Below are positions 2,771 through 18,271 of a DNA stretch of 64,000 nt, in pieces (the first letter of the stretch is position 1; every line of letters starts with the position of its first letter). A program made the position numbers and the translations under genes. Source of the DNA: Gimesia fumaroli (GTDB lineage: Bacteria; Planctomycetota; Planctomycetia; Planctomycetales; Planctomycetaceae). The stretch spans positions 4,625,164-4,689,163 of the forward strand of contig NZ_CP037452.1 of the NCBI RefSeq assembly GCF_007754425.1. The letters are read 5' to 3'. Below the pieces are notes generated by a model. The model worked only from the letters and a program-made list of their open reading frames with translations, was not told where the DNA came from and did not search any database.

Positions 2771-4327
2771 ATGTCATCCGTTGCCTCTTCGCCGCTCTTA
2801 AAACTGCACCCGGAAGATAATATTGCCATTGCCCGTAATTCGGTGGCGGAAAACCAGGAATGTCCCCTTTCGGAAACCGAAAGCGTGACGGCTCGGGAAG
2901 ATATCGACTTAGGACATAAAGTCGCCATTCAGCAGATTGCCAAGGGAGAGCCAATCCGTAAGTTCGGTCAGGTGATCGGTTTTGCGACGTCGGACATGCA
3001 GCCAGGCGACTGGATTCACAGTCACAACCTGGAAGCCGGGGAATTGAGCCTGGATTACGCTTATTCCAGCGATGTGCCTGCTCCCCCGGAACCAGTGGAA
3101 GGCCGGACTTTCATGGGTTACCGCCGTCCGAACGGGAAAGCGGGCACGCGAAACTATCTGGCGATCATTAGTACGGTCAACTGCTCGGCAACCGCGTCCA
3201 AATACATTGCCCGAGAACTGGCGAAAACCTCGCTGGAAGACTATCCGAATATTGACGGCATCATTCCCCTGGTCCACAAGGGGGGGTGTGCCATGCAGTA
3301 TGATGGCGAAGACCATCATCAACTAATGCGAACTCTGGGCGGCTTTGCCAAGCATCCTAATATCGGCGCGTATGTTGTTCTGGGGCTGGGATGTGAAACA
3401 GGGCAAGGTTCTTTTCTCTCGGATTCCGAAGGGCTGGTCCAGTTACAAAACCTCAAGGCCCCCAAACCTCTGGAACCATTGGTGCTCAATATTCAAGACA
3501 TAGGGGGGATAGCCAAAACAGTCAAAAAAGTCACCGCCCTTTTGCAAGACTATTTGCCCATTGTGAATGACGTCAAACGCGAACCCATTCCCGTTTCGGA
3601 GCTGATTCTGGGAACGGAGTGCGGCGGCAGTGACGGCAACAGTGGTGTGACCGCCAATCCAGCCTTGGGAATTGCCAGTGACCTGCTCGTCGCTCATGGT
3701 GCCACTTCGATACTGGGCGAAACCTCGGAAATCTATGGAGGCGAACATCTTCTCACCCGCCGAGCCATCACCCCTGAAGTCGGCAAGAAACTGATTGAAC
3801 GGATCAAATGGTGGGAAGAGTATACAGGCAAGTTTGGAGTCGTCATTGATAACAATCCTTCTCCCGGCAATAAAAGAGGGGGCCTGACCACGATTTATGA
3901 AAAATCACTGGGGGCGATTGCCAAAGGGGGCAGCACAGCCCTGCGTGAAGTCTATCGTTTCGCGGAACCCGTCACAGAAAAGGGCTTTGTGATTATGGAT
4001 ACCCCGGGTTATGACCCCGCTTCGGTTACCGGGATGGTTGCCGGCGGCGCGAATGTGGTCGCATTTACCACGGGCCGTGGCAGCTGCTTCGGTTGTAAGC
4101 CTGTTCCCAGCATCAAGATCTCGACCAACACCCCAATGTATGAACGAATGGAAGATGACATGGACCTGGACGCCGGTCGCATTCTAAATGGGACCTCTGT
4201 AGAAGAAGTGGGGCGGGAGATCTTCGAACTGGTCATCGATGTTGCCAGTGGTAAAAAAACCAAAAGTGAACTCCAGGGCATCGGAGACGAAGAATTCTGC
4301 CCCTGGAGCATCGGACCGGTTCTATAA
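2771..4327 (+). CDS. UxaA-family hydro-lyase (altronate/galactarate dehydratase type)
   Basis: A 518-residue protein with the two-part organisation of altronate dehydratases: an N-terminal SAF-like domain (about residues 10-95, ending HSHNLEAGELSLDY) and the large UxaA catalytic region from about 110. FMGYRRPNGKAGTRNYLAI is the usual domain entry. CGGSDGNSGVTANPALG and the Cys-containing GRGSCFGCKPVPSIKI match metal-binding and active-site blocks of the family. Family members dehydrate sugar acids such as D-altronate or D-galactarate in uronate catabolism. Its place between a sulfatase and a porin-like gene fits use of sulfated uronate-rich polysaccharides. The exact substrate cannot be read from the sequence. 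Confidence 0.88.
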   Translation: MSSVASSPLLKLHPEDNIAIARNSVAENQECPLSETESVTAREDIDLGHKVAIQQIAKGEPIRKFGQVIGFATSDMQPGDWIHSHNLEAGELSLDYAYSSDVPAPPEPVEGRTFMGYRRPNGKAGTRNYLAIISTVNCSATASKYIARELAKTSLEDYPNIDGIIPLVHKGGCAMQYDGEDHHQLMRTLGGFAKHPNIGAYVVLGLGCETGQGSFLSDSEGLVQLQNLKAPKPLEPLVLNIQDIGGIAKTVKKVTALLQDYLPIVNDVKREPIPVSELILGTECGGSDGNSGVTANPALGIASDLLVAHGATSILGETSEIYGGEHLLTRRAITPEVGKKLIERIKWWEEYTGKFGVVIDNNPSPGNKRGGLTTIYEKSLGAIAKGGSTALREVYRFAEPVTEKGFVIMDTPGYDPASVTGMVAGGANVVAFTTGRGSCFGCKPVPSIKISTNTPMYERMEDDMDLDAGRILNGTSVEEVGREIFELVIDVASGKKTKSELQGIGDEEFCPWSIGPVL

Positions 4328-4696
4328 AGCGTTTCCTTTCTTCGTTCTAAGACCAATTGGCACCCTCCTATTTCGAAATCCGTCAAGAAAAATGCGAATT
4401 AACTCAGTCGCATAATCCTATCTTACTTCTATTAAAAGACTTAGCCATTTATACCTGTCTGTTCCCATTCGTCAACTTCCTGAAAACACCCACCAGAGAC
4501 TACACTTCCGAACACGTACTTTCACGCTCAATACAATCGATAGAACTATTGAAACAGGAAAATTCGGCATCTTCCGAATAATCGCTACAGTTTACCAGAA
4601 GCGATGTCCGATATAACCAGCAACAGACTCCGCGCAATTCCGTATTAGATCGCGCGGATTGTTATCAAAGTTTCCGCTGTTTGTAAGGACGTATAG

Positions 4697-6517
4697 ATGC
4701 GGCTTCTTAATTGGCTAGCACCGGTATTGAGCATCGTTCTGATCTCACACGCATATTCCACAGTGCATGCGCAGGGATATCCCCCTCCGATGACGCAGTC
4801 GGGGATGATACAGCCCGTATCATTTAATTCCTCGAATCTGTCGGGATTCACTCAGAACGTACAATCATCCATGGGAGCCCCCCCACCTCCGCCGAATTTC
4901 TTTCAGGCGGCAACCGGTGGTTATGGTGCACCCGGTATGCCCGGAGTTCCGATGAACGCCGGGCCACAGTCTTCGCTGAGTGCGTTCCCTCGCATTTCTC
5001 CTTTCGAAAAGATGTTTCAACAACATCGGGTCGACAAGAACGGCTTGTGGTCATACAAGTCCAGCAACGCTGGTAAAAAATACTTCTTCAGCACGGAAGC
5101 ACTCTTTTCACGCTACCAGAATCCTGGTGGTGCCTTGATCGGAAATAGCGGGTCCATTTCCTACCTGAATATGGTTGAAGACGAACTGATCGCAGCAGTC
5201 GATGAGGAATTTTTTGATCAGTTCAGCGAAAACGAAGGTTTAAACTACTTTGACTCGGTCCACTACAACAAGATACCCAGCTTGGATGCACCTGGTGTTC
5301 GTCTACGTTGGGGCTGGACCAACGATGACGATAGCGGGTTTGAACTTTCGGGATGGTGGATATCTCAGGCAAATTCGTCATGGTCGGCGATTGAGGATTC
5401 GACTCACAAACCCAATCCAGCAAATCAGGCGATTATGGACATCCTGCTCTCACCTCCCAACTTTATTGATCCGGATGGTGATGGGGTATTTACTACGATC
5501 CCTGGTGTGACCCAGGCTGAAATCAATACCATCCTGCAAAACGAATTGATGAACCTGGGCGGCCTCCCTCTTGATGACGGTACAGTGAATGGAGTCACCG
5601 TTCCTTACGACCTGGATTTCAGAGTGAAAGTAGTCAGCCAGGCCTGGGGTACGAACGCCACCTGGATGTCGACGCCATTTGTTGACAAGAAAGCCTTGAA
5701 AATTCGTACTCTGGCAGGTGCCAGATACATGCAGGTTCGGGAAGGTTTCGGATTCGTTGGTGTTGACAGTGGCCTGCTCTATAGCGATGCGAATAACATC
5801 GCCGGAATTCGTCCGGACTTGAAACTGTTTTCACTCCCTACCGGAACAGATGAAAACGAAGACGGTATTGTTGACAACGCAGGTGTCGTGGAAGATGACG
5901 ATGGAGGAACAGGTACTTCCACCGCCTTCTTCGTTGCTCCTACAGATGCTGTTACCGACGTGGCTGTGACTCCCACAACCACTTATGTCAACAACAAAGT
6001 CGATACCCATCTGGCTGGACCTGAATTAGGGATTCAGTTTGACATCGGTGGTGACAAATTTAAAATCTGGGGTCAGACCAAAGTTGGTATCATGGCCAAT
6101 CAGGAAACTATTGAACTGGAAGGGGACAACGTTGGGATGATCACCCGCGTCGAAGATCCTACTGACCCTACTTCTGAACGACCTAAAGCGTTAATCGATC
6201 CAACAGCCGACAACCCGAATCCAAACGCCTTTTCCGATCGTCAGACACACACCCACATCTCACCAATCTTTGAACAGTCTATCTTCATGGAAATGGCAAT
6301 CTTTGACAAAGTACCAGTACTAAAACGAATGAAACTTCTTGAGGAAGCAAAATTCAAATTCGGTTACACGTACATTGTCGCCGGAGAAATGGCCAGACCC
6401 TATGACAGTATTCGCTGGCAGGGCATGCCTACCAGAGGCTTGTTCCCCTCCATCGATGTCAAACGTGAATCCTGGAGTGTTGGCAGTTGGAGTATCGGTA
6501 TCGACTGGCTCTACTAA
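4697..6517 (+). CDS. BBP7-like outer-membrane beta-barrel protein
   Basis: A 606-residue exported protein. Residues 1-26 are a signal peptide ending in VHAQ. A Pro/Gly-rich, low-complexity stretch (about 27-95) follows. The remainder is rich in alternating hydrophobic and aromatic residues and Asp/Gly turns, including an Asp-rich segment DPDGDGVFTTIPG near residue 260 that could bind calcium. The C-terminal part (SVGSWSIGIDWLY, ending in an aromatic residue) resembles the closing strand of a beta-barrel. This is the pattern of the BBP7 family, common in planctomycetes and of unproven function. The start is supported by AAGGA seven bases upstream. A strong terminator follows the stop. Confidence 0.75.
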   Translation: MRLLNWLAPVLSIVLISHAYSTVHAQGYPPPMTQSGMIQPVSFNSSNLSGFTQNVQSSMGAPPPPPNFFQAATGGYGAPGMPGVPMNAGPQSSLSAFPRISPFEKMFQQHRVDKNGLWSYKSSNAGKKYFFSTEALFSRYQNPGGALIGNSGSISYLNMVEDELIAAVDEEFFDQFSENEGLNYFDSVHYNKIPSLDAPGVRLRWGWTNDDDSGFELSGWWISQANSSWSAIEDSTHKPNPANQAIMDILLSPPNFIDPDGDGVFTTIPGVTQAEINTILQNELMNLGGLPLDDGTVNGVTVPYDLDFRVKVVSQAWGTNATWMSTPFVDKKALKIRTLAGARYMQVREGFGFVGVDSGLLYSDANNIAGIRPDLKLFSLPTGTDENEDGIVDNAGVVEDDDGGTGTSTAFFVAPTDAVTDVAVTPTTTYVNNKVDTHLAGPELGIQFDIGGDKFKIWGQTKVGIMANQETIELEGDNVGMITRVEDPTDPTSERPKALIDPTADNPNPNAFSDRQTHTHISPIFEQSIFMEMAIFDKVPVLKRMKLLEEAKFKFGYTYIVAGEMARPYDSIRWQGMPTRGLFPSIDVKRESWSVGSWSIGIDWLY

Positions 6518-6594: not shown

Positions 6595-8331
6595 TCATTT
6601 AATTTGTTTCAGTGTCACGTCACCCACTGTGTTGTTGTTCCGAGTATAAACTCGATCTGTCCCCGTCTGAAACCAGATATCCAGCATGCCCGTGCCGGCA
6701 CGCAATTCAAACTCGGCAGTGTTTTCATTCGCATTCAAATATTCATGCGTCTTCTGCCCCTGCCAGTCGACAATCAGCTTCCCTGAGTTCTGCATCGCTT
6801 TTCTGTTGATCTGAACACGATATAATCCCGGGTTATTAATCTTCACCATCCAGCCTTGAGGGACCCCGTGAGAGTAAGTGCTGTCCTGGTAACGGCACAG
6901 CACGCTGGGATCTTCCTTCTCTTTGTCAATCACAATGGTACCTGGAGTAAAATGACGTGTGTTCTGTACTGCAGAAAACCAGGCATCGTATTTCTGGCGG
7001 AGCGCTGCCGCCTGTTCCGGCTTGCTTTGAATCAGGTTATTTGCTTCTCCCGGATCGACAGACAAATCGTATAATTCCAAAATGGGTTCTGCCTGTTGCA
7101 TCAGGTTTTCATCACCAAACGTCCCCGGGTATCCCACCAGTTTAAACCGTTGTGTCACAACGGCCGAATTTTGATACTGCTGGGGAGTCAATCCTCGATG
7201 AACCTGGAAAAAAAGACTGCGTTCAGGCAATTCGGCTTTCTTTCCCGATAGCAGTTCAGAAAGATCGATCCCATCCAGTGCCAGAGAAGCGGGCCGAGGT
7301 GTCTTTGTCAGTGAAAGCAGCGTTGGCAGCAGGTCAATGTGTGCGGCGATCTGATCACTTTTCGTGCCACCTTGAAAATGACCGGGCCACTGCGCGACAA
7401 ACGGAACACGAATTCCGCCTTCGTAGGTCCAGGACTTCCTGCCCCGTAAGCCAGCGGTAAACCGTTTTTGCTGAGGTCCATTATCTCCCAGAAAAATCAC
7501 GATCGTATCGTCTGACAGCTTCTCTCGTTTCAACCAGGCCATCAGTTTTCCCACGTTCTCATCCAGGTTCTCTACCATTCCATAAACGCGCGCCGTCGTT
7601 TCATTCAGCCCCATTTTCTGATACGGCCCCCAGTATGAACGATCGACTTCCAGAGGTGTATGCGGTGCATTGGTTGGCAGATAAACAAAGAATGGCTGCC
7701 GCGCCTGTTTTTGCTGATCCATGAATTTGATCGCAGCGTCGAAGAACACATCGGTGCAATAACCGTCTGCTTGAAACCGTTTACCATTCTTCCACAGCCG
7801 GGAATCAAAATAACTGTTTGGCTGATCCGGCGTTTGGCCGATGCCACCGCTTTTATGAACCAGTGTTTCTTCAAATCCCTGATCCTCTGGACGCATCGGA
7901 TAATTATCTCCCAGATGCCATTTCCCAAAAATGCCGGTTTTATATCCTGCCTGTTTTAAGAGTTCTGCCAGCGTGATTTCTTCTCCGTGCATCTTCGCGC
8001 CTCCACGCGAAGTATGAATCACGCCGGTACGATAAAAATAGCGGCCCGTCATCAGACTGGCGCGGGTCGGGGCACACACCGGACTGCAGTAGAACCGGGT
8101 CAATTCGATGCCGTTTTTTGCCATACGATCCAGGTGCGGCGTTTTGATTTTCTTATTTCCATGAAAGCCGACATCGCCATAACCCTGATCGTCAGTCAGA
8201 ATCAGAACGACATTCGGCCGCTCTGATTCCGCGTTTGCGCCCCAGGCAGAAAGTGCATTCGTCGTTGAAAGAAGCATTCCCAGTATCAACCAGACAAAAC
8301 AGCATTTCGATTGGAACTTCAACATCAACAA
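6595..8331 (-). CDS. Secreted sulfatase with C-terminal extension
   Basis: A 578-residue sulfatase. A hydrophobic signal sequence lies within residues 8-34 (VWLILGMLLSTTNALSAWGA). The metal-binding block is NVVLILTDDQGYGDVGFHG (40-58), the formylglycine motif is CAPTR at 86-90, and GKWHLGD and FLGDNGPQ follow. Catalytic sulfatase sequence ends near residue 455. About 110 further residues contain beta-rich sequence (GWMVKINNPGLYRVQINRK) that looks like an appended jelly-roll or carbohydrate-contact module rather than sulfatase core. The gene is convergent with the BBP7-like gene and shares its terminator region. It is not the paralogue next door in disguise: the C-terminal module is absent from the sulfatase at 922-2556. 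Confidence 0.95.
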   Translation of the reverse strand: MLMLKFQSKCCFVWLILGMLLSTTNALSAWGANAESERPNVVLILTDDQGYGDVGFHGNKKIKTPHLDRMAKNGIELTRFYCSPVCAPTRASLMTGRYFYRTGVIHTSRGGAKMHGEEITLAELLKQAGYKTGIFGKWHLGDNYPMRPEDQGFEETLVHKSGGIGQTPDQPNSYFDSRLWKNGKRFQADGYCTDVFFDAAIKFMDQQKQARQPFFVYLPTNAPHTPLEVDRSYWGPYQKMGLNETTARVYGMVENLDENVGKLMAWLKREKLSDDTIVIFLGDNGPQQKRFTAGLRGRKSWTYEGGIRVPFVAQWPGHFQGGTKSDQIAAHIDLLPTLLSLTKTPRPASLALDGIDLSELLSGKKAELPERSLFFQVHRGLTPQQYQNSAVVTQRFKLVGYPGTFGDENLMQQAEPILELYDLSVDPGEANNLIQSKPEQAAALRQKYDAWFSAVQNTRHFTPGTIVIDKEKEDPSVLCRYQDSTYSHGVPQGWMVKINNPGLYRVQINRKAMQNSGKLIVDWQGQKTHEYLNANENTAEFELRAGTGMLDIWFQTGTDRVYTRNNNTVGDVTLKQIK

Positions 8332-8480
8332 AGCCTTTCTTCAATCAACAAATCAGAAGTCATTGATCCAATGGATGTAAAAAGGATGATTTCCGAAAAA
8401 CCAGTTGCCGGACCGGGCCGCATGCCATACGATAAGGAAATATGAAAGTACGACGATTGTCAGAGGCCGGAGGACAGACT

Positions 8481-9107
8481 ATGAATCACAGCCGCATCTG
8501 GTTCAGCATGCTGTTGATCGGAGTTGCCGCTCAATGTCAACAAGCCCAGGCTCAGGTACTCAGAATCCAACAACCTATCGTACAACAATTTTCAGCAGAC
8601 ACAACGCTGAGTGTTCCCGATCGGGGCAGCGCACTGATCGGCGGTTTCAGTTCCGGAGCCATCCGCTCCCGGCAGACCGGCCCCTTTCGGCGGGGATCAA
8701 ACTATGGTCATGCTTTCCAGAGTTCGACCAGCAGTGTCAGCGTTTACATACATGACTTTGAAGCCATGGACCGCATGCTGTTGAACTCGGCTCCAGCCGC
8801 GCTGCGCCACAATAGTGGAATTCCGAGTCGCGACCAGCATTGGAAACAGCAGTTGCTTGCACGACAAGCAGGCGTATCGACTCCCAGGCGTCTTTCCACT
8901 TCACGCACTGCAGCAGAAACCGCGCCACACTCGGCTGAGCAATTCGCGCAAACCAAGGCAGAACGCTTTTTCGAGTTAGGTCAGAAAGCAGAGCAAAAGC
9001 ACGCGACTCCCAATATCGCCATCCTGCATTACAGAGTGGCAGAAAAGTATGGAAGCGCACGAGCCAAGGCAAGACTGCAGCAACTGACAACGCTCAAAGA
9101 AGAGTGA
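8481..9107 (+). CDS. Secreted protein with a TPR-like C-terminal segment, unknown function
   Basis: An unrecognised 208-residue exported protein. The ATG at 8481 is preferred over an in-frame upstream ATG at 8442, because GGAGG (8469-8473) sits seven bases before it and a clean signal peptide follows directly (MNHSRIWFSMLLIGVAAQ, cut after AQAQ). The middle is Ser/Arg-rich without domain signatures. The last 60 residues (QTKAERFFELGQKAEQKHA and NIAILHYRVAEKYGS) resemble one tetratricopeptide-like helix pair. The gene is alone on its strand, and its stop lies 16 bp from the stop of the convergent gene. Confidence 0.7.
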   Translation: MNHSRIWFSMLLIGVAAQCQQAQAQVLRIQQPIVQQFSADTTLSVPDRGSALIGGFSSGAIRSRQTGPFRRGSNYGHAFQSSTSSVSVYIHDFEAMDRMLLNSAPAALRHNSGIPSRDQHWKQQLLARQAGVSTPRRLSTSRTAAETAPHSAEQFAQTKAERFFELGQKAEQKHATPNIAILHYRVAEKYGSARAKARLQQLTTLKEE

Positions 9108-11354: not shown

Positions 11355-13064
11355 TCAGGCATTCACAGGCAGGATTGTCGTGGCTTTCAGATAGTCGTCC
11401 GACACGCCTTCAAGATCGGAATCATGCTGCACCAGATGTTCTGCCTCCGACCACCAGACAGAAGCCTGTTCCTGGGTCCATGATTTGATCTCTAACTGGT
11501 TCAGAGCACGACTCAATTCTTCAGCTGATTGAAAACGATCTTCCGGCTTCTTTTCCAGACATTTCAAAATGATGGCTTCCAGTTCGGCTGAAATCCGGGG
11601 ATTGATTGACGACGGCGGAACCACCGGCTGACTGGCATGTGCGAACATGACCTTGATTGCATTTTCGCCTTCAAAGACCGGTTTTCCCGTCAGCAGGTAA
11701 TAGACGCTCGCCCCTAACGAATAAATATCAGAACGCGTATCCGGCTTTTCATCGCCCGTCACAACCTCCGGGCTGGTATAGAGCGGCGAACCGACCACGG
11801 CCCCTTCCATTGTCAGATTCAGAGAAGGATTCTCCGATCGACTGCTGTTATCTTTCACCAGACCGAAATCGAGCAACTTGGCAACATCGTACAGACCGCC
11901 CCGCTCCGCCGAGAAGATATTGCCCGGCTTGATATCACGGTGAATCAACCCTTTGTGGTGTGCTTCCGCCAGTGCCGAGCAGACCTGCTTCAGCAGATAC
12001 ACAACCCGCTCCGGAGGCAACGCCCCAAAACGCTCGACAATCTCCTGCAGGTTGAGCCCCGGCAGGAACTCCATCACATAGTAAAACGTTCCTTCTTCTG
12101 TATGACCGTAATCGTAGATTTCGATTGTATTGGGATGGGTTAAACCAGCGGTGGCCTGAACTTCACTCTCAAACCGCAGCAGCACATTGCTGTCATCGAC
12201 CTTATCACGGCGTATCAGTTTAATCGCACAAGGTCGCTTCAGCAGACGATGCTCAGCCAGATAGACTTCGCCCATACCGCCACTACCCACCTGTTTGCGC
12301 AGCGTATACATGCCGATGCTTTTGGCATCGAATGCTTCACGCCGGAGGCTCCCCACACGATACGATCCATAAATGGCTGTACTACCGGCAATCAGCAGCA
12401 AGATGATCATTTCCGATAAGCCGCCCGTATAAAGCACCTCAGAAACCTGTGGTACCTGCATCCCCGTCATCACGGCCCCGGCAATCGGGCTGATGACCAT
12501 CAGACTCACAACAGAAATGACACCCCGTAAGGAATTCGGGATAAAGAATCCGTACGTGTAAATCAAAATCACCCAGGGAAACACGGTTCGGAGCGGAAAG
12601 GCAAATGCAACTTTCCCCAGCAACACGGGATCACAGGCACATATTTCACCGAAATGCCACCAGATAAAGAACGCCGCTGGTGCGCCAAAAGTAATCGCTT
12701 CGCAGATCCGTAAACGGACGATACACAGGCAGGATCGCAACCAGAGCCAACCGGTAACAGCAAACAGAATTCCTGTCAAAAGAGAATCGAGAACCAGCGT
12801 CTTCTCGCCGTGGGGAGTGTTAAATTCATCCAACCACAACCCGCGTAGTAAAAATGCCAGCGATGCCAGAGCCAGGAACAGAGACGCCATGCGCAGACGG
12901 CTGTGCAGAAGTACTCGTCCCTGTTCTTGAAACATGCCGGAACCACGCGAAACCACGCCGGCATGCGGACAGAATTTGCCGGCTTCCTTGATAATCTCTC
13001 GCGGATGCAAAGCAGACCTTGTTTTGTGGTCCGCTGATGAAGGGGCCTCTTGTTTTGAACTCAT
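11355..13064 (-). CDS. Membrane-anchored serine/threonine protein kinase, kinase domain at the C-terminus
   Basis: A 569-residue protein kinase of the bacterial PknB type. About six hydrophobic segments occupy residues 58-235 (for example ASLFLALASLAFLLRGLW and MIILLLIAGSTAIYG). The kinase domain runs from about 252 to 520. Its glycine-rich loop is VGSGGMGEVYLAEH, the ATP lysine is Lys282 in CAIKLIRR, the catalytic loop is HRDIKPGN with Asp377, and the metal site is DFGLV with Asp399. GSPLYTSPE replaces APE. All catalytic residues are present, so it should be active. Typical bacterial kinases have kinase first and membrane helix after; this order is reversed. ATG 13064 is chosen over TTG 13070 for spacing from GGGA. 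It lies downstream of the pseudo-receiver gene. Confidence 0.93.
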   Translation of the reverse strand: MSSKQEAPSSADHKTRSALHPREIIKEAGKFCPHAGVVSRGSGMFQEQGRVLLHSRLRMASLFLALASLAFLLRGLWLDEFNTPHGEKTLVLDSLLTGILFAVTGWLWLRSCLCIVRLRICEAITFGAPAAFFIWWHFGEICACDPVLLGKVAFAFPLRTVFPWVILIYTYGFFIPNSLRGVISVVSLMVISPIAGAVMTGMQVPQVSEVLYTGGLSEMIILLLIAGSTAIYGSYRVGSLRREAFDAKSIGMYTLRKQVGSGGMGEVYLAEHRLLKRPCAIKLIRRDKVDDSNVLLRFESEVQATAGLTHPNTIEIYDYGHTEEGTFYYVMEFLPGLNLQEIVERFGALPPERVVYLLKQVCSALAEAHHKGLIHRDIKPGNIFSAERGGLYDVAKLLDFGLVKDNSSRSENPSLNLTMEGAVVGSPLYTSPEVVTGDEKPDTRSDIYSLGASVYYLLTGKPVFEGENAIKVMFAHASQPVVPPSSINPRISAELEAIILKCLEKKPEDRFQSAEELSRALNQLEIKSWTQEQASVWWSEAEHLVQHDSDLEGVSDDYLKATTILPVNA

Positions 13065-13352
13065 CCTCAAAGTTCCCAGCCATGATCGATTTTTAGTTAG
13101 GCAACTCTCTGATCAGATTCTGCGAGAAATTTGCTCACTCAACATCGACCATTTTTGACCCGCTTGCGGTCATCGAAGATCACTCACAAGTAGAATCATA
13201 GCCGTTGTTTAAAACCCTCATAACAACTGATCGTAAAGCACAGCATTTTGGCCCCATTATACGGCACAGGAGCAACGAATTATAGTACCTTTTCTCCGTG
13301 TCAGGCAAATAAGTCTTCCCCACCGTAAACTGCTATAGTAAGAGTACTTAAG

Positions 13353-14387
13353 TTAATCAGATTTTTTCTGATAACACTCTCCCAGGTGAACCATCATCTC
13401 CAACGCCAGTAAGTCAGCGCGAGACATCACATGTCGCGAACTGCGATTCCCCAACCCCCGTACAATGACTTCAACGCATTGGAGATGAAATTCCAGAACG
13501 TGGCGCGGGGGCAGATTGGCTGCAGAGAGCAACTCCGCAATTTGCAGAATTTCTTCTTTGAGACTCCCCGATCCCATAATCACATAGGTTCGCAGCAATT
13601 CGTGATAGTAATCCTGAACCTCTTGCGGAATCGGAAATTCAACCGATGTCGCCTCGGAATCCATGGGATGCTGACTCTCCCCTGACAGCAAGTCAGATTC
13701 AGACTCATCCACTTCGCTCGGATAAGTGAGCGTCTGCAATTCTTCCACCATCGAACGTTGCTGATTCAACAACCGTTCTGCTTCATCCCGTTCCCGAACC
13801 AGGCGTCGATGATTGTCGACCTGTAACCGGTGATTTTCTTCGTTCAACTCATGAGCCAGCATTGCCCGCTGCATCACGCCCAGTAGCGCCGGGGACTCCC
13901 ACAGCGCCGGCGAGACTAAAACTTCGGCCTGATTTTCACAAGCCGCCAGTACAATCTGATCGTCGGGTGAAGCCAGCATCAGCACAACTGGTTCCTGACA
14001 GCCACTCATCCGAATCGCGTTTAGCAATTCCAGTCGACTCGCTTTGGTCTCTCCGTTCAGATGCAGCAACATACAGTCGAAGCTGTCATTTCGCAGGAGG
14101 GTCAATGCTTCTTCCGAAGTCGACACCCACTCTAATCGAGGCTCCGAACAACCGATGGCATCCAGTCGCAAAGCCAGGCTGACCCAGACGGGTCTCTGCG
14201 CGCTGACAAACAGTACTTTCAGACGCGGGGGAATTAATGGCCTTTGCGATGAACGCAAATGAGTTTCGTGTGCATCGCTGTCAGCGAGATCCAGATCGGC
14301 AGTGTCTCGGGACTTCATCTGTCTTTCTGCATTTTCTGCGAAAGCAGGAGTCGCTGCCTGATTGATCTTGTCATGCTTCACGCTCAT
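13353..14387 (-). CDS. Pseudo-receiver / RsbU_N-KaiA-like helical domain protein
   Basis: A 344-residue regulator candidate. A polar leader (1-55) precedes a CheY-like fold (about 57-172) that has lost every phosphotransfer residue: the acidic pair is Ser-Ala in VLFVSAQR, the acceptor Asp is His109 in FDCMLLHLNGE, the Thr/Ser block reads LMLAS, and the Lys is Ser159 in VLVSPAL. A coiled coil follows (about 178-220), then an acidic linker. Residues 258-340 align by eye with the Bacillus RsbU N-terminal domain (YYHELLRTY, LPPRHVLEFHLQ, LLALEMMVHLGECYQ), which is structurally related to the KaiA C-terminal domain. The kinase gene lies 288 bp downstream on the same strand. Signalling would be by protein contact, not phosphorylation. 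Confidence 0.75.
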   Translation of the reverse strand: MSVKHDKINQAATPAFAENAERQMKSRDTADLDLADSDAHETHLRSSQRPLIPPRLKVLFVSAQRPVWVSLALRLDAIGCSEPRLEWVSTSEEALTLLRNDSFDCMLLHLNGETKASRLELLNAIRMSGCQEPVVLMLASPDDQIVLAACENQAEVLVSPALWESPALLGVMQRAMLAHELNEENHRLQVDNHRRLVRERDEAERLLNQQRSMVEELQTLTYPSEVDESESDLLSGESQHPMDSEATSVEFPIPQEVQDYYHELLRTYVIMGSGSLKEEILQIAELLSAANLPPRHVLEFHLQCVEVIVRGLGNRSSRHVMSRADLLALEMMVHLGECYQKKSD

Positions 14388-14494
14388 ATCCGAACCTGTA
14401 TAATCTCAGGACTATAAAGGGTCTCAATCAGAACTGTCAATACGAGGTCGATTTCACAACCTGTCTTCCAGGCAAACAAAGTGAATCAGCCGTT

Positions 14495-16542: not shown

Positions 16543-17592
16543 TCAAATGATTTCAGGAATTTCCGGTAATTCCAGATTTTGCTCTTCAATCACATCGCGC
16601 ATCCGCTGCAGTGATCGAATTGTCAACTGCCTGACGCGTTCGGTACTGATGCCCAGGTCATCCGCAATCTCACGAAACTTTTCCGGTGCATCGGAGTGAT
16701 ACAATCCAAAACGCCGCTTCAAAATCAGCTGCTCGCGTTCATCCAGGGTGTGCAAGACCTGTTTCAGTACATATCGAATCGAATGGTGATACGATTCATG
16801 TGAACGGGGCGTCGAACGAAAATCACTTAACCCCATCGCCGCCGACTCAACACCGCTCACAAATGATTTCCGGTATTTCCGACCTTTTTTTGTCGCACGA
16901 AACAGAAAGTTGCGAATCGCCCATGTCCCATAAGTACTAAAGCGGTTGCCACGGTCGATGTCAAAAATTTCGACCGCCCGAATCAACGGCATTTGACCAT
17001 CGCTTACGATATCCTCAAACGTATTCGCTCGATCGGTCAGACCTTTTGCAATAGAAACCACCAACCGTAAATTGGCTTGAATGATGTAATCCCGCAATCG
17101 ATGCGCATCCTTCAGCTTCTGTTCGATTCGATCCAATAGCCCTACACAGGGAGACTTGAGATCGATCTGGTCTCTCAGCACAGACGCCCGGTATTTCAGA
17201 TAATTCATGCCCTTGAATAAAATTACTTCCTGCTCTTTTTCCAGCAGAGGCACGGAATACAGGGGCGCATATTGCGCTGGAAATCCCTCTGTTTCGTCAT
17301 CAACCTCCGGATTTAACTCAGAACAGAGCTGATGTAATGGCTGCAGAATCTGCTCGCCAGCGTCATCCTGATCGAAATGATCGCTGAAGACATATTCGAT
17401 TTCGGCGGAGCAGATCTTCTCAGCGCGCTTCTGTAATTCCCGTGTGACACAATACTTTTTCATCCGGGCTGCTTTTTTAGCCGACAGCAACTCACACTGA
17501 CAGGGCTTCGCTTGATTGGCAGTCAGCGCACGTGCTCCCAGTTCAGAAAAAGAACCTGACTCCGATGGATTACCTGCGATAGCACTATACAT
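16543..17592 (-). CDS. Divergent sigma-70 family sigma factor
   Basis: A 349-residue sigma factor. Region 2 is at about 160-240: RDYIIQANLRLVVSIAKGL (2.1), FEDIVSDGQMPLIRAVEIFD (2.2) and RFSTYGTWAIRNFLFRATKK (2.3-2.4). Region 4 is at about 285-340: LDEREQLILKRRFGL and FREIADDLGISTERVRQL. Between them only about 45 residues remain, so a full region 3 appears to be missing. The 140 residues before region 2 are acidic and unlike the housekeeping factor. It is probably a group 3-like planctomycete factor. The ATG at 17592, nine bases after GAGAG, is preferred to a TTG at 17601. A pair of direct repeats lies upstream. Confidence 0.88.
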   Translation of the reverse strand: MYSAIAGNPSESGSFSELGARALTANQAKPCQCELLSAKKAARMKKYCVTRELQKRAEKICSAEIEYVFSDHFDQDDAGEQILQPLHQLCSELNPEVDDETEGFPAQYAPLYSVPLLEKEQEVILFKGMNYLKYRASVLRDQIDLKSPCVGLLDRIEQKLKDAHRLRDYIIQANLRLVVSIAKGLTDRANTFEDIVSDGQMPLIRAVEIFDIDRGNRFSTYGTWAIRNFLFRATKKGRKYRKSFVSGVESAAMGLSDFRSTPRSHESYHHSIRYVLKQVLHTLDEREQLILKRRFGLYHSDAPEKFREIADDLGISTERVRQLTIRSLQRMRDVIEEQNLELPEIPEII

Positions 17593-18271
17593 ACATTTCA
17601 ACTCTCAGAGATTGTTCTTATCAGGAAAAGGAATCTGAAAGACAGATACTCTCCCGCGTATCGTATGCGATCGTATCGTATAAAACAATTTTAACAGGCT
17701 TTATTGTTTAAATTCAGCAAGAAATATATAATAGACACTCTGAAGAGAAGTTAAACTGTCGTAGCAAAGATAGGATGATTTCCAAGTCATATAATTACCG
17801 CTGAAAACAGAGGATGTTTAGAGTAAATGCCGAATTGGGGGCGAATTGGAATCTACTCACGGATTCATGGTAAAAAAGCCGATTATGATCCCAGGGGAGA
17901 CGTCCTCCCGGTCACTTCAAAACCAATATCAGAAGTACATTTTTCCACTATATCTCCCATCCCAAAACTCTGATCCTTCCTTTCCAACGTTTGCTAAGTC
18001 TATTAAAGAGTTTAGACCTGATGCTATCACTCGCAAAATAGACCGAAATCCGTTAGCATTCTCGTAATCGAGGTCTGTTTCGGTGTGCGTCACTCTGAAT
18101 CAGATGTGGGATCACCTCAAAAAGAGTCAGTATAGTTCCCTTAACGACGATGCATTCCTAGAATAGTTTTATCACTCATCTGTGTGATTTCTTCCGGGCC
18201 GACTCTGGAGAGTTGTCTAAGAGAAGTTACGCTCATTGAACATACTTAGCAGGTTGAAAGAACCTTATCTC
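17593..18271. other. 679-bp divergent intergenic region
   Basis: This AT-rich region separates the sigma factor gene from aceE and must carry both promoters. Apart from the direct repeats at 17657-17681 I see no gene. An open frame of 73 codons at 17846-18067 lacks a ribosome-binding site and recognisable sequence. Confidence 0.6.
17657..17681. repeat. Two 10-bp direct repeats, CGTATCGTAT
   Basis: Identical copies of CGTATCGTAT occupy 17657-17666 and 17672-17681, starting 15 bp apart. Each copy itself contains CGTAT twice. They lie 65-89 bp upstream of the sigma factor ATG. This is the position of a promoter-proximal operator, but no regulator is identified. Confidence 0.7.

Follow-up and report, generated by a model that had tools for sequence, protein, structure and literature searches.

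A KaiA-like candidate signaling adaptor without a phospho-acceptor aspartate in the planctomycete Gimesia fumaroli

Introduction

A gene of the planctomycete Gimesia fumaroli raises the question of what a protein built like KaiA may do in this bacterium, KaiA having, to our knowledge, long been thought to be confined to cyanobacterial clocks. According to the excerpted text of two papers, the published exceptions outside these clocks mostly come with kaiB and kaiC (PMC11372060, PMC8113500): KaiA3 has been reported from cyanobacteria and from five further genera, as a rule together with kaiB3 and kaiC3 (Koebler et al., 2024; PMC11372060), and a kaiABC operon is present in "Planctomycetaceae bacterium TMED241" (Dvornyk & Mei, 2021; PMC8113500). 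Among open PMC papers, no mention was found of a KaiA-like family lacking KaiB and KaiC. The answer favored here, with a probability of roughly 0.6, is that the gene encodes a phosphorylation-independent signaling adaptor of the KaiA/RsbU type, which has the architecture of KaiA and acts on a partner other than KaiC.

Gene and domain layout

The gene lies in a window of 64,000 nucleotides, the whole stretch of DNA that was analyzed, and is present as a single copy in the G. fumaroli genome (G000). The parts of the gene and of its product (P0001) are the following:

13353..14387, minus strand: open reading frame of the KaiA-like candidate adaptor, 344 amino acids, stop codon at 13353-13355
14226..14387, minus strand: N-terminal extension, residues 1-54, variable, with gaps or little conservation in the family alignment, pLDDT below 50
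13893..14225, minus strand: Asp-less pseudo-receiver domain, residues about 55-165, with a weak Response_reg match and with receiver structures matched by the family profile
13725..13892, minus strand: long conserved helix, residues 166-221, taken as a coiled coil from the AlphaFold2 model
13644..13724, minus strand: linker, residues 222-248, variable in the alignment, pLDDT below 50 at residues 223-249
13356..13643, minus strand: four-helix domain of the KaiA/RsbU type, residues 249-344, with a profile match to KaiA

The full-length protein was modeled by AlphaFold2 (four sequences) with a mean pLDDT of 54.6, low in the receiver part, and with predicted helices at residues 166-221 (the long helix), 255-271, 274-289, 294-312, and 317-343; modeled by itself, the C-terminal domain forms four helices with a pLDDT of 88.9. 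Conservation along the protein is strongest in this domain, as judged from a 45-member alignment in which five columns are invariant (Y261, R266, H301, R318, and L59) and in which R198 and E202 of the long helix are conserved at 90% or more; a separate set of conservation counts by column, which shows the variable N-terminus and linker, takes in the incomplete rows L074, L087, and L092. An earlier sequence-only reading of this DNA had proposed the open reading frame, a coiled coil, and a C-terminal domain, all of which are confirmed, the coiled coil as predicted helix 166-221. In an NCBIfam scan of the 45 members, the G. fumaroli protein has no match near any curated cut-off, and Pfam gives it no phosphatase or other catalytic match.

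The pseudo-receiver

The N-terminal domain had been described as a receiver fold stripped of its phosphotransfer residues, and this description holds for the residues named (S62/A63 at the position of the acidic pair, H109 at that of the acceptor, and S159 in the Lys region, where a reading in the canonical register puts the Lys at 159 or 160, neither of which is Lys) and extends to the whole family. In an alignment of 64 rows, the G. fumaroli protein and 63 homologues, the acceptor column 109 carries a letter in 62 rows and Asp in none of them; therefore, loss of the phospho-acceptor Asp is a trait of the family, and an N-terminal pseudo-receiver without the acceptor Asp is a feature that it shares with KaiA. 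Response_reg (Pfam) matches residues 85-155 weakly, with 13 bits against a cut-off of 30.2. With a profile of the family as a whole, receiver structures are matched at the N-terminal end (3kht_A, E 3.9e-6) and KaiA at the C-terminal end (best E 0.00099).

Two known groups of proteins come close to this arrangement. Aspartate-less receiver (ALR) proteins, as the excerpt of PMC4395418 presents them, have the same receiver fold without the phospho-acceptor Asp; the G. fumaroli protein differs from them in that the domain following the receiver is of the KaiA/RsbU type. KaiA3 (Sll0485 of Synechocystis) likewise joins a receiver to a KaiA-type C-terminal domain, but in the excerpted account it mostly keeps the acceptor Asp and is usually accompanied by kaiB3 and kaiC3 (PMC11372060), whereas the planctomycete family lacks the Asp and the G. 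fumaroli locus has no kai neighbors. Hence, neither the phosphorylatable Asp nor the kaiB3/kaiC3 synteny that would mark a member of KaiA3 is found.

The C-terminal domain, KaiA and RsbU

The domain was compared with KaiA and RsbU by profile, by single sequences, and by predicted fold. A profile of 42 C-terminal sequences (A2) retrieves eight distinct KaiA sequences from the PDB at E-values of 2.4e-5 to 0.0028, and the next matches are a designed protein (0.2), PTS enzyme I (0.26), and RsbU (0.47); with a set of 27 sequences, 23 of the first set plus four from other planctomycete families, the values become 7.4e-6 for KaiA and 0.19 for RsbU. At E up to 10, 23 of the 42 single members match Pfam KaiA (best 8.8e-7) and 21 match RsbU_N (best 0.0019), and when the other families are added, 11 of the 27 sequences match RsbU_N at E up to 1, with a best value of 1e-5. 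Pfam KaiA exceeds its curated cut-off in two of 150 sampled genomes of the family (G020 and G088), both times at homologues of this gene, and RsbU_N exceeds its own in none of the 150. As for the G. fumaroli protein itself, the full-length sequence matches neither KaiA nor RsbU_N in Pfam at E up to 10, and its C-terminal domain alone reaches 12.7 bits against Pfam KaiA, below the cut-off of 22.2.

In Foldseek searches, the whole model has full-length KaiA (1r8j) as its best-ranked PDB match, with an E-value of 0.012, a probability of 0.87, a TM-score of 0.22, and an rmsd of 24 Å, in keeping with the KaiA domain order that had been suggested before. For the C-terminal model, KaiA entries take ranks 1, 2, and 4 and RsbU entries ranks 6 and 9, all at E above 0.1, so that in absolute terms the fold matches are weak. 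Jointly, these lines of sequence and model evidence, none of them decisive alone, support the assignment of the domain to the KaiA/RsbU superfamily, nearer KaiA than RsbU. The initial proposal that it aligns with the RsbU N-terminal domain is borne out with respect to the superfamily, KaiA being the nearer of the two by profile (2.4e-5 for KaiA vs. 0.47 for RsbU). RsbU_N was considered as the closer family and set aside.

With KaiA (PF07688; 1r8j, 1q6a), the protein has in common a pseudo-receiver, a helical linker, and a C-terminal four-helix domain, across the whole of which the profile match extends; this last feature is present at the level of the family, while the G. fumaroli domain stays below the Pfam cut-off. 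A pairing made by hand on the C-terminal profile alignment sets KaiA residues Y198, H237, H271, E274, and Y276 opposite Y261, H301, H334, E337, and Y339. Of these, H271 presumably matters for KaiC; no paper on its role was found among open PMC papers. On helix 4, the same pairing places R318, H319, R323, and D325 opposite KaiA E255, D256, D260, and R262, a reversal of charges that argues for a partner other than KaiC.

The RsbU N-terminal domain (PF08673; 2j6y, 1w53) is of the same kind of fold, with weaker profile and fold matches. In RsbU, it lies N-terminal to a PPM phosphatase (PMC12143880, excerpt), whereas in the KaiA-like protein the domain is C-terminal and follows the receiver, and Pfam finds no PPM/PP2C phosphatase beyond it. 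A fairly unlikely alternative is that the protein nevertheless works in the manner of RsbU, with an RsbT-type ATPase kinase docking on the four-helix domain in a branch of the partner-switching stress pathway. Besides the RsbU_N matches of single members, this is suggested by seven SpoIIE-type matches in the G. fumaroli genome, by an HATPase_c_2 kinase of a 162-aa frame that adjoins an ORF judged by eye to be STAS-like, and by RsbU N-terminal domains that are known to be fused to other outputs (PMC12143880, excerpt). The lack of any catalytic match in the protein and of any RsbU_N match above the cut-off in the 150 genomes speaks against it, and the short HATPase_c_2 kinase looks, by eye, like RsbW.

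Distribution and clock partners

Homologues occur in 68 of the 150 genomes sampled from the same family and in 34 of 58 genera, all at E ≤ 6.9e-21, after removal of receiver-only matches in G025, G042, and G048 from an initial set of 71 genomes and 36 genera obtained at E ≤ 0.001. One of them, from a Gimesia MAG (L003), is 67% identical to the G. fumaroli protein. The C-terminal domain was found by profile search in at least 20 of 392 genomes of the phylum, G. fumaroli and G025 included, and at least four of these belong to three other families of the same class; at most 12 candidates were scored per genome, and absences are lower bounds. Among viral contigs, 49 stretches matched a pattern and none was a relative.

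KaiB (Pfam) is above its cut-off in 21 of the 150 genomes and not in G. fumaroli, where the best score is 19.6 bits, in a 595-aa frame, against a cut-off of 27. A single weak KaiC-family match is found there, with an E-value of 7.9e-11 at a threshold of 1e-10 (17 of 67 candidates scored), while KaiC-like genes of other genomes reach 4.4e-73; this search scored 17 candidates in each genome, and its absences are likewise lower bounds. KaiB and KaiC in kaiABC order, as expected for a KaiA of the clock, are thus not seen in the G. fumaroli genome. The KaiA-like protein is present in six of the 21 genomes with KaiB and in 62 of the 129 without, if anything below expectation (p 0.11), and its presence does not track KaiB. 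Because KaiB is lacking above the cut-off, the only KaiC-family match among the 17 candidates scored is weak, and KaiB is not tracked, the protein very likely acts independently of KaiB and KaiC, which agrees with the sequence-only reading, in which no clock function was implied. Kai proteins were therefore disfavored as its partners in this genome.

That it could still be a clock protein, acting on a KaiC that was not recognized, is very improbable. Its domain and architecture are of the KaiA type, and in another planctomycete (G025) a kaiA-like gene directly precedes kaiB and kaiC; the state of KaiB and KaiC in G. fumaroli, a distribution that does not follow KaiB, and the helix 4 charges, reversed relative to KaiA in the alignment read by hand, all weigh against it. 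The wider proposal, put forward tentatively at somewhat less than even odds, is that of a KaiA free of the clock: a regulatory dimer of the KaiA type, present in the 68 genomes of the family and in four genomes of three others, with a partner that is not KaiC. If true, this would point to the KaiA module as a general adaptor for tuning kinases or ATPases that was recruited by cyanobacteria for the clock. The origin of KaiA becomes open to testing through a widespread KaiA-like family whose occurrence does not follow that of KaiB, and the partner of this family would show a KaiA-type role outside the clock.

Gene neighborhood

Candidate partners were sought in the neighborhood of the gene by a comparison of 71 loci, the G. 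fumaroli locus included, of which five have less than 700 bases upstream and four (L044 among them) less than 600 bases downstream. Two features flank the G. fumaroli gene:

11355..13070, minus strand: membrane Ser/Thr kinase, possible partner, Pkinase (Pfam) 2.2e-46, kinase domain at residues 255-517
14411..14440, minus strand: putative sigma-70-type promoter TTGACA-18-TATAGT, 11 of 12 matches, ending 23 bases before the ATG

The kinase gene, reported earlier as lying downstream on the same strand, is indeed there, separated from the KaiA-like gene by 282 bases; the N-terminal half of its product is hydrophobic by eye, as in a putative membrane kinase. It is directly downstream in 14 of the 71 loci, namely in each of the 11 Gimesia-type loci that were read and in L044, L051, and L066, one locus in each of three further genera (L044, at a contig end, has the kinase N-terminus only). 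The remaining genera read do not show this adjacency, and in L063 there is just a kinase-domain match 2.7 kb from the gene. Within Gimesia, the adjacency says little, since the whole gene block is syntenic there. The kinase gene next to the KaiA-like gene is broken up into two reading frames, 7322-7909 and 7840-9069, at one Gimesia-type locus (L037, of G038).

Counted by genome, at a cut of E ≤ 2.3e-20 for the kinase N-terminus that was picked after the list had been seen, the KaiA-like protein is present in 25 of 30 genomes with the kinase N-terminus and in 43 of 120 without it (p 3e-6), and with Gimesia excluded in 14 of 19 vs. 43 of 120 (p 0.0024). By genus, the co-occurrence is not significant (11 of 15 vs. 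23 of 43; Fisher p 0.23). At that cut, the kinase N-terminus is missing from 43 of the 68 genomes that carry the KaiA-like protein, and three genomes of one genus have it on a different contig from the KaiA-like gene.

These counts bear on a second alternative, that the KaiA-like dimer is a kinase-specific adaptor that binds and tunes the downstream membrane Ser/Thr kinase. The 14 adjacent loci and the co-occurrence by genome, with its post hoc cut, are what recommends it, but the result by genus, the many genomes that have the protein and not the kinase N-terminus, the syntenic block that underlies the Gimesia loci, and the split of the kinase N-terminus in G038 make it rather improbable. The pairing with the kinase that had been inferred at first is thus supported in part, the adjacency being kept at the Gimesia-type loci and at one locus in each of three other genera.

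A promoter-like site, possibly there by chance, also precedes the kinase gene, which counts further against a tie between the two genes. In the 64-kb stretch, a scan found five such sites where 4.0 are expected, and hence only conservation carries weight, which was checked for the site of the KaiA-like gene: its TTGACA is identical in all eight Gimesia-type upstream regions aligned, which makes a promoter of its own probable for this gene. Inspection of the short leader in Gimesia by eye revealed no conserved CsrA-type GGA. The same run of genes includes, upstream, a sigma-70 family factor (16543-17601, with regions 2 and 4), which lies beside the KaiA-like gene in the Gimesia-type loci compared.

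Two other neighbors, which occur only outside Gimesia and were invisible to the sequence-only reading, recur in more genera than the kinase. A divergent csrA lies about 279-440 bases upstream in nine of the 71 loci, from eight genera scattered on the tree, and L051 and L066 have the gene flanked by both csrA and the kinase. If nine csrA copies in 6.8 Mb and a reach of 700 bases on either side are assumed, chance adjacency is about 0.0019 per locus; the observed rate is far above it, in a calculation that assumes an independence violated by shared ancestry. A MazG-like gene is found downstream in nine of the 71 loci as well: seven loci of the family (five genera), one locus of another family, where it is 25 bases away, and one of a third family, where it is 1136 bases away. 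The MazG-like pyrophosphohydrolase gene is within about 250 bases in L048, L050, L061, L067, L076, L092, L154, and L156, and the one in L050 is confirmed by Pfam. A cluster scan revealed no universal neighbor, the widespread clusters besides the gene and the kinase being, by their offsets, mostly ORFs that overlap the gene. Since the neighbors differ between genera, no single partner is indicated.

The csrA loci would fit a role of the protein in a CsrA/motility circuit, for example as a modulator of CsrA or through joint regulation with csrA, and fliD is downstream in six loci of one genus. This reading is distinctly unlikely: csrA is not matched close to the gene at the Gimesia loci or at most of the others compared, shared ancestry reduces the number of independent events on a tree with some weakly supported nodes, and the presence of csrA is uninformative because all 150 genomes have it, in many copies (13 matches in G. 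fumaroli and 3 to 16 in the genomes listed).

A possible mode of action

The adaptor reading, with a partner other than KaiC, would work as follows. By analogy with KaiA and RsbU, whose domains dimerize and bind a kinase partner, KaiC and RsbT, respectively (PMC11372060, PMC12143880, PMC6378743, in their excerpted text), the four-helix domain may form a dimer. The pseudo-receiver would sense a ligand or a partner instead of phosphate; the KaiA pseudo-receiver binds oxidized quinones according to the same excerpts (PMC11372060, PMC12143880, PMC6378743). The coiled coil would transmit its signal, and the helical domain would dock on the partner and tune it. Candidates for this partner are the neighboring membrane kinase, an RsbT/RsbW-type ATPase, and a CsrA-linked pathway.

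A kai cluster in another planctomycete of the family

The kai loci of 20 of the 21 genomes with KaiB (G109 left out) were compared, and a convincing kaiA-like match was present at that of G025 alone and not in the two other genomes of its genus. Its kaiA-like, kaiB, and kaiC genes form a tight cluster on a contig of 503,576 bases (L131, C41:476000-488000, at 3361-6148 on the minus strand), with a KaiB of 91 bits and a double-domain KaiC of 392 bits. The kaiA-like protein has no Pfam KaiA match at E up to 1, retrieves no KaiA chain from the PDB by phmmer, and is matched by the profile of the present family only (A2, E 3.1e-6, helix 1 unaligned); it consists of a receiver, in which the acceptor Asp is read by eye as Asn, and a KaiA-like domain. 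Near the cluster (L131, 5-487, minus strand), a single frame contains a CsrA domain (57 bits) and, after it, a HisKA match that is weak (15.9 bits against a cut-off of 26.9).
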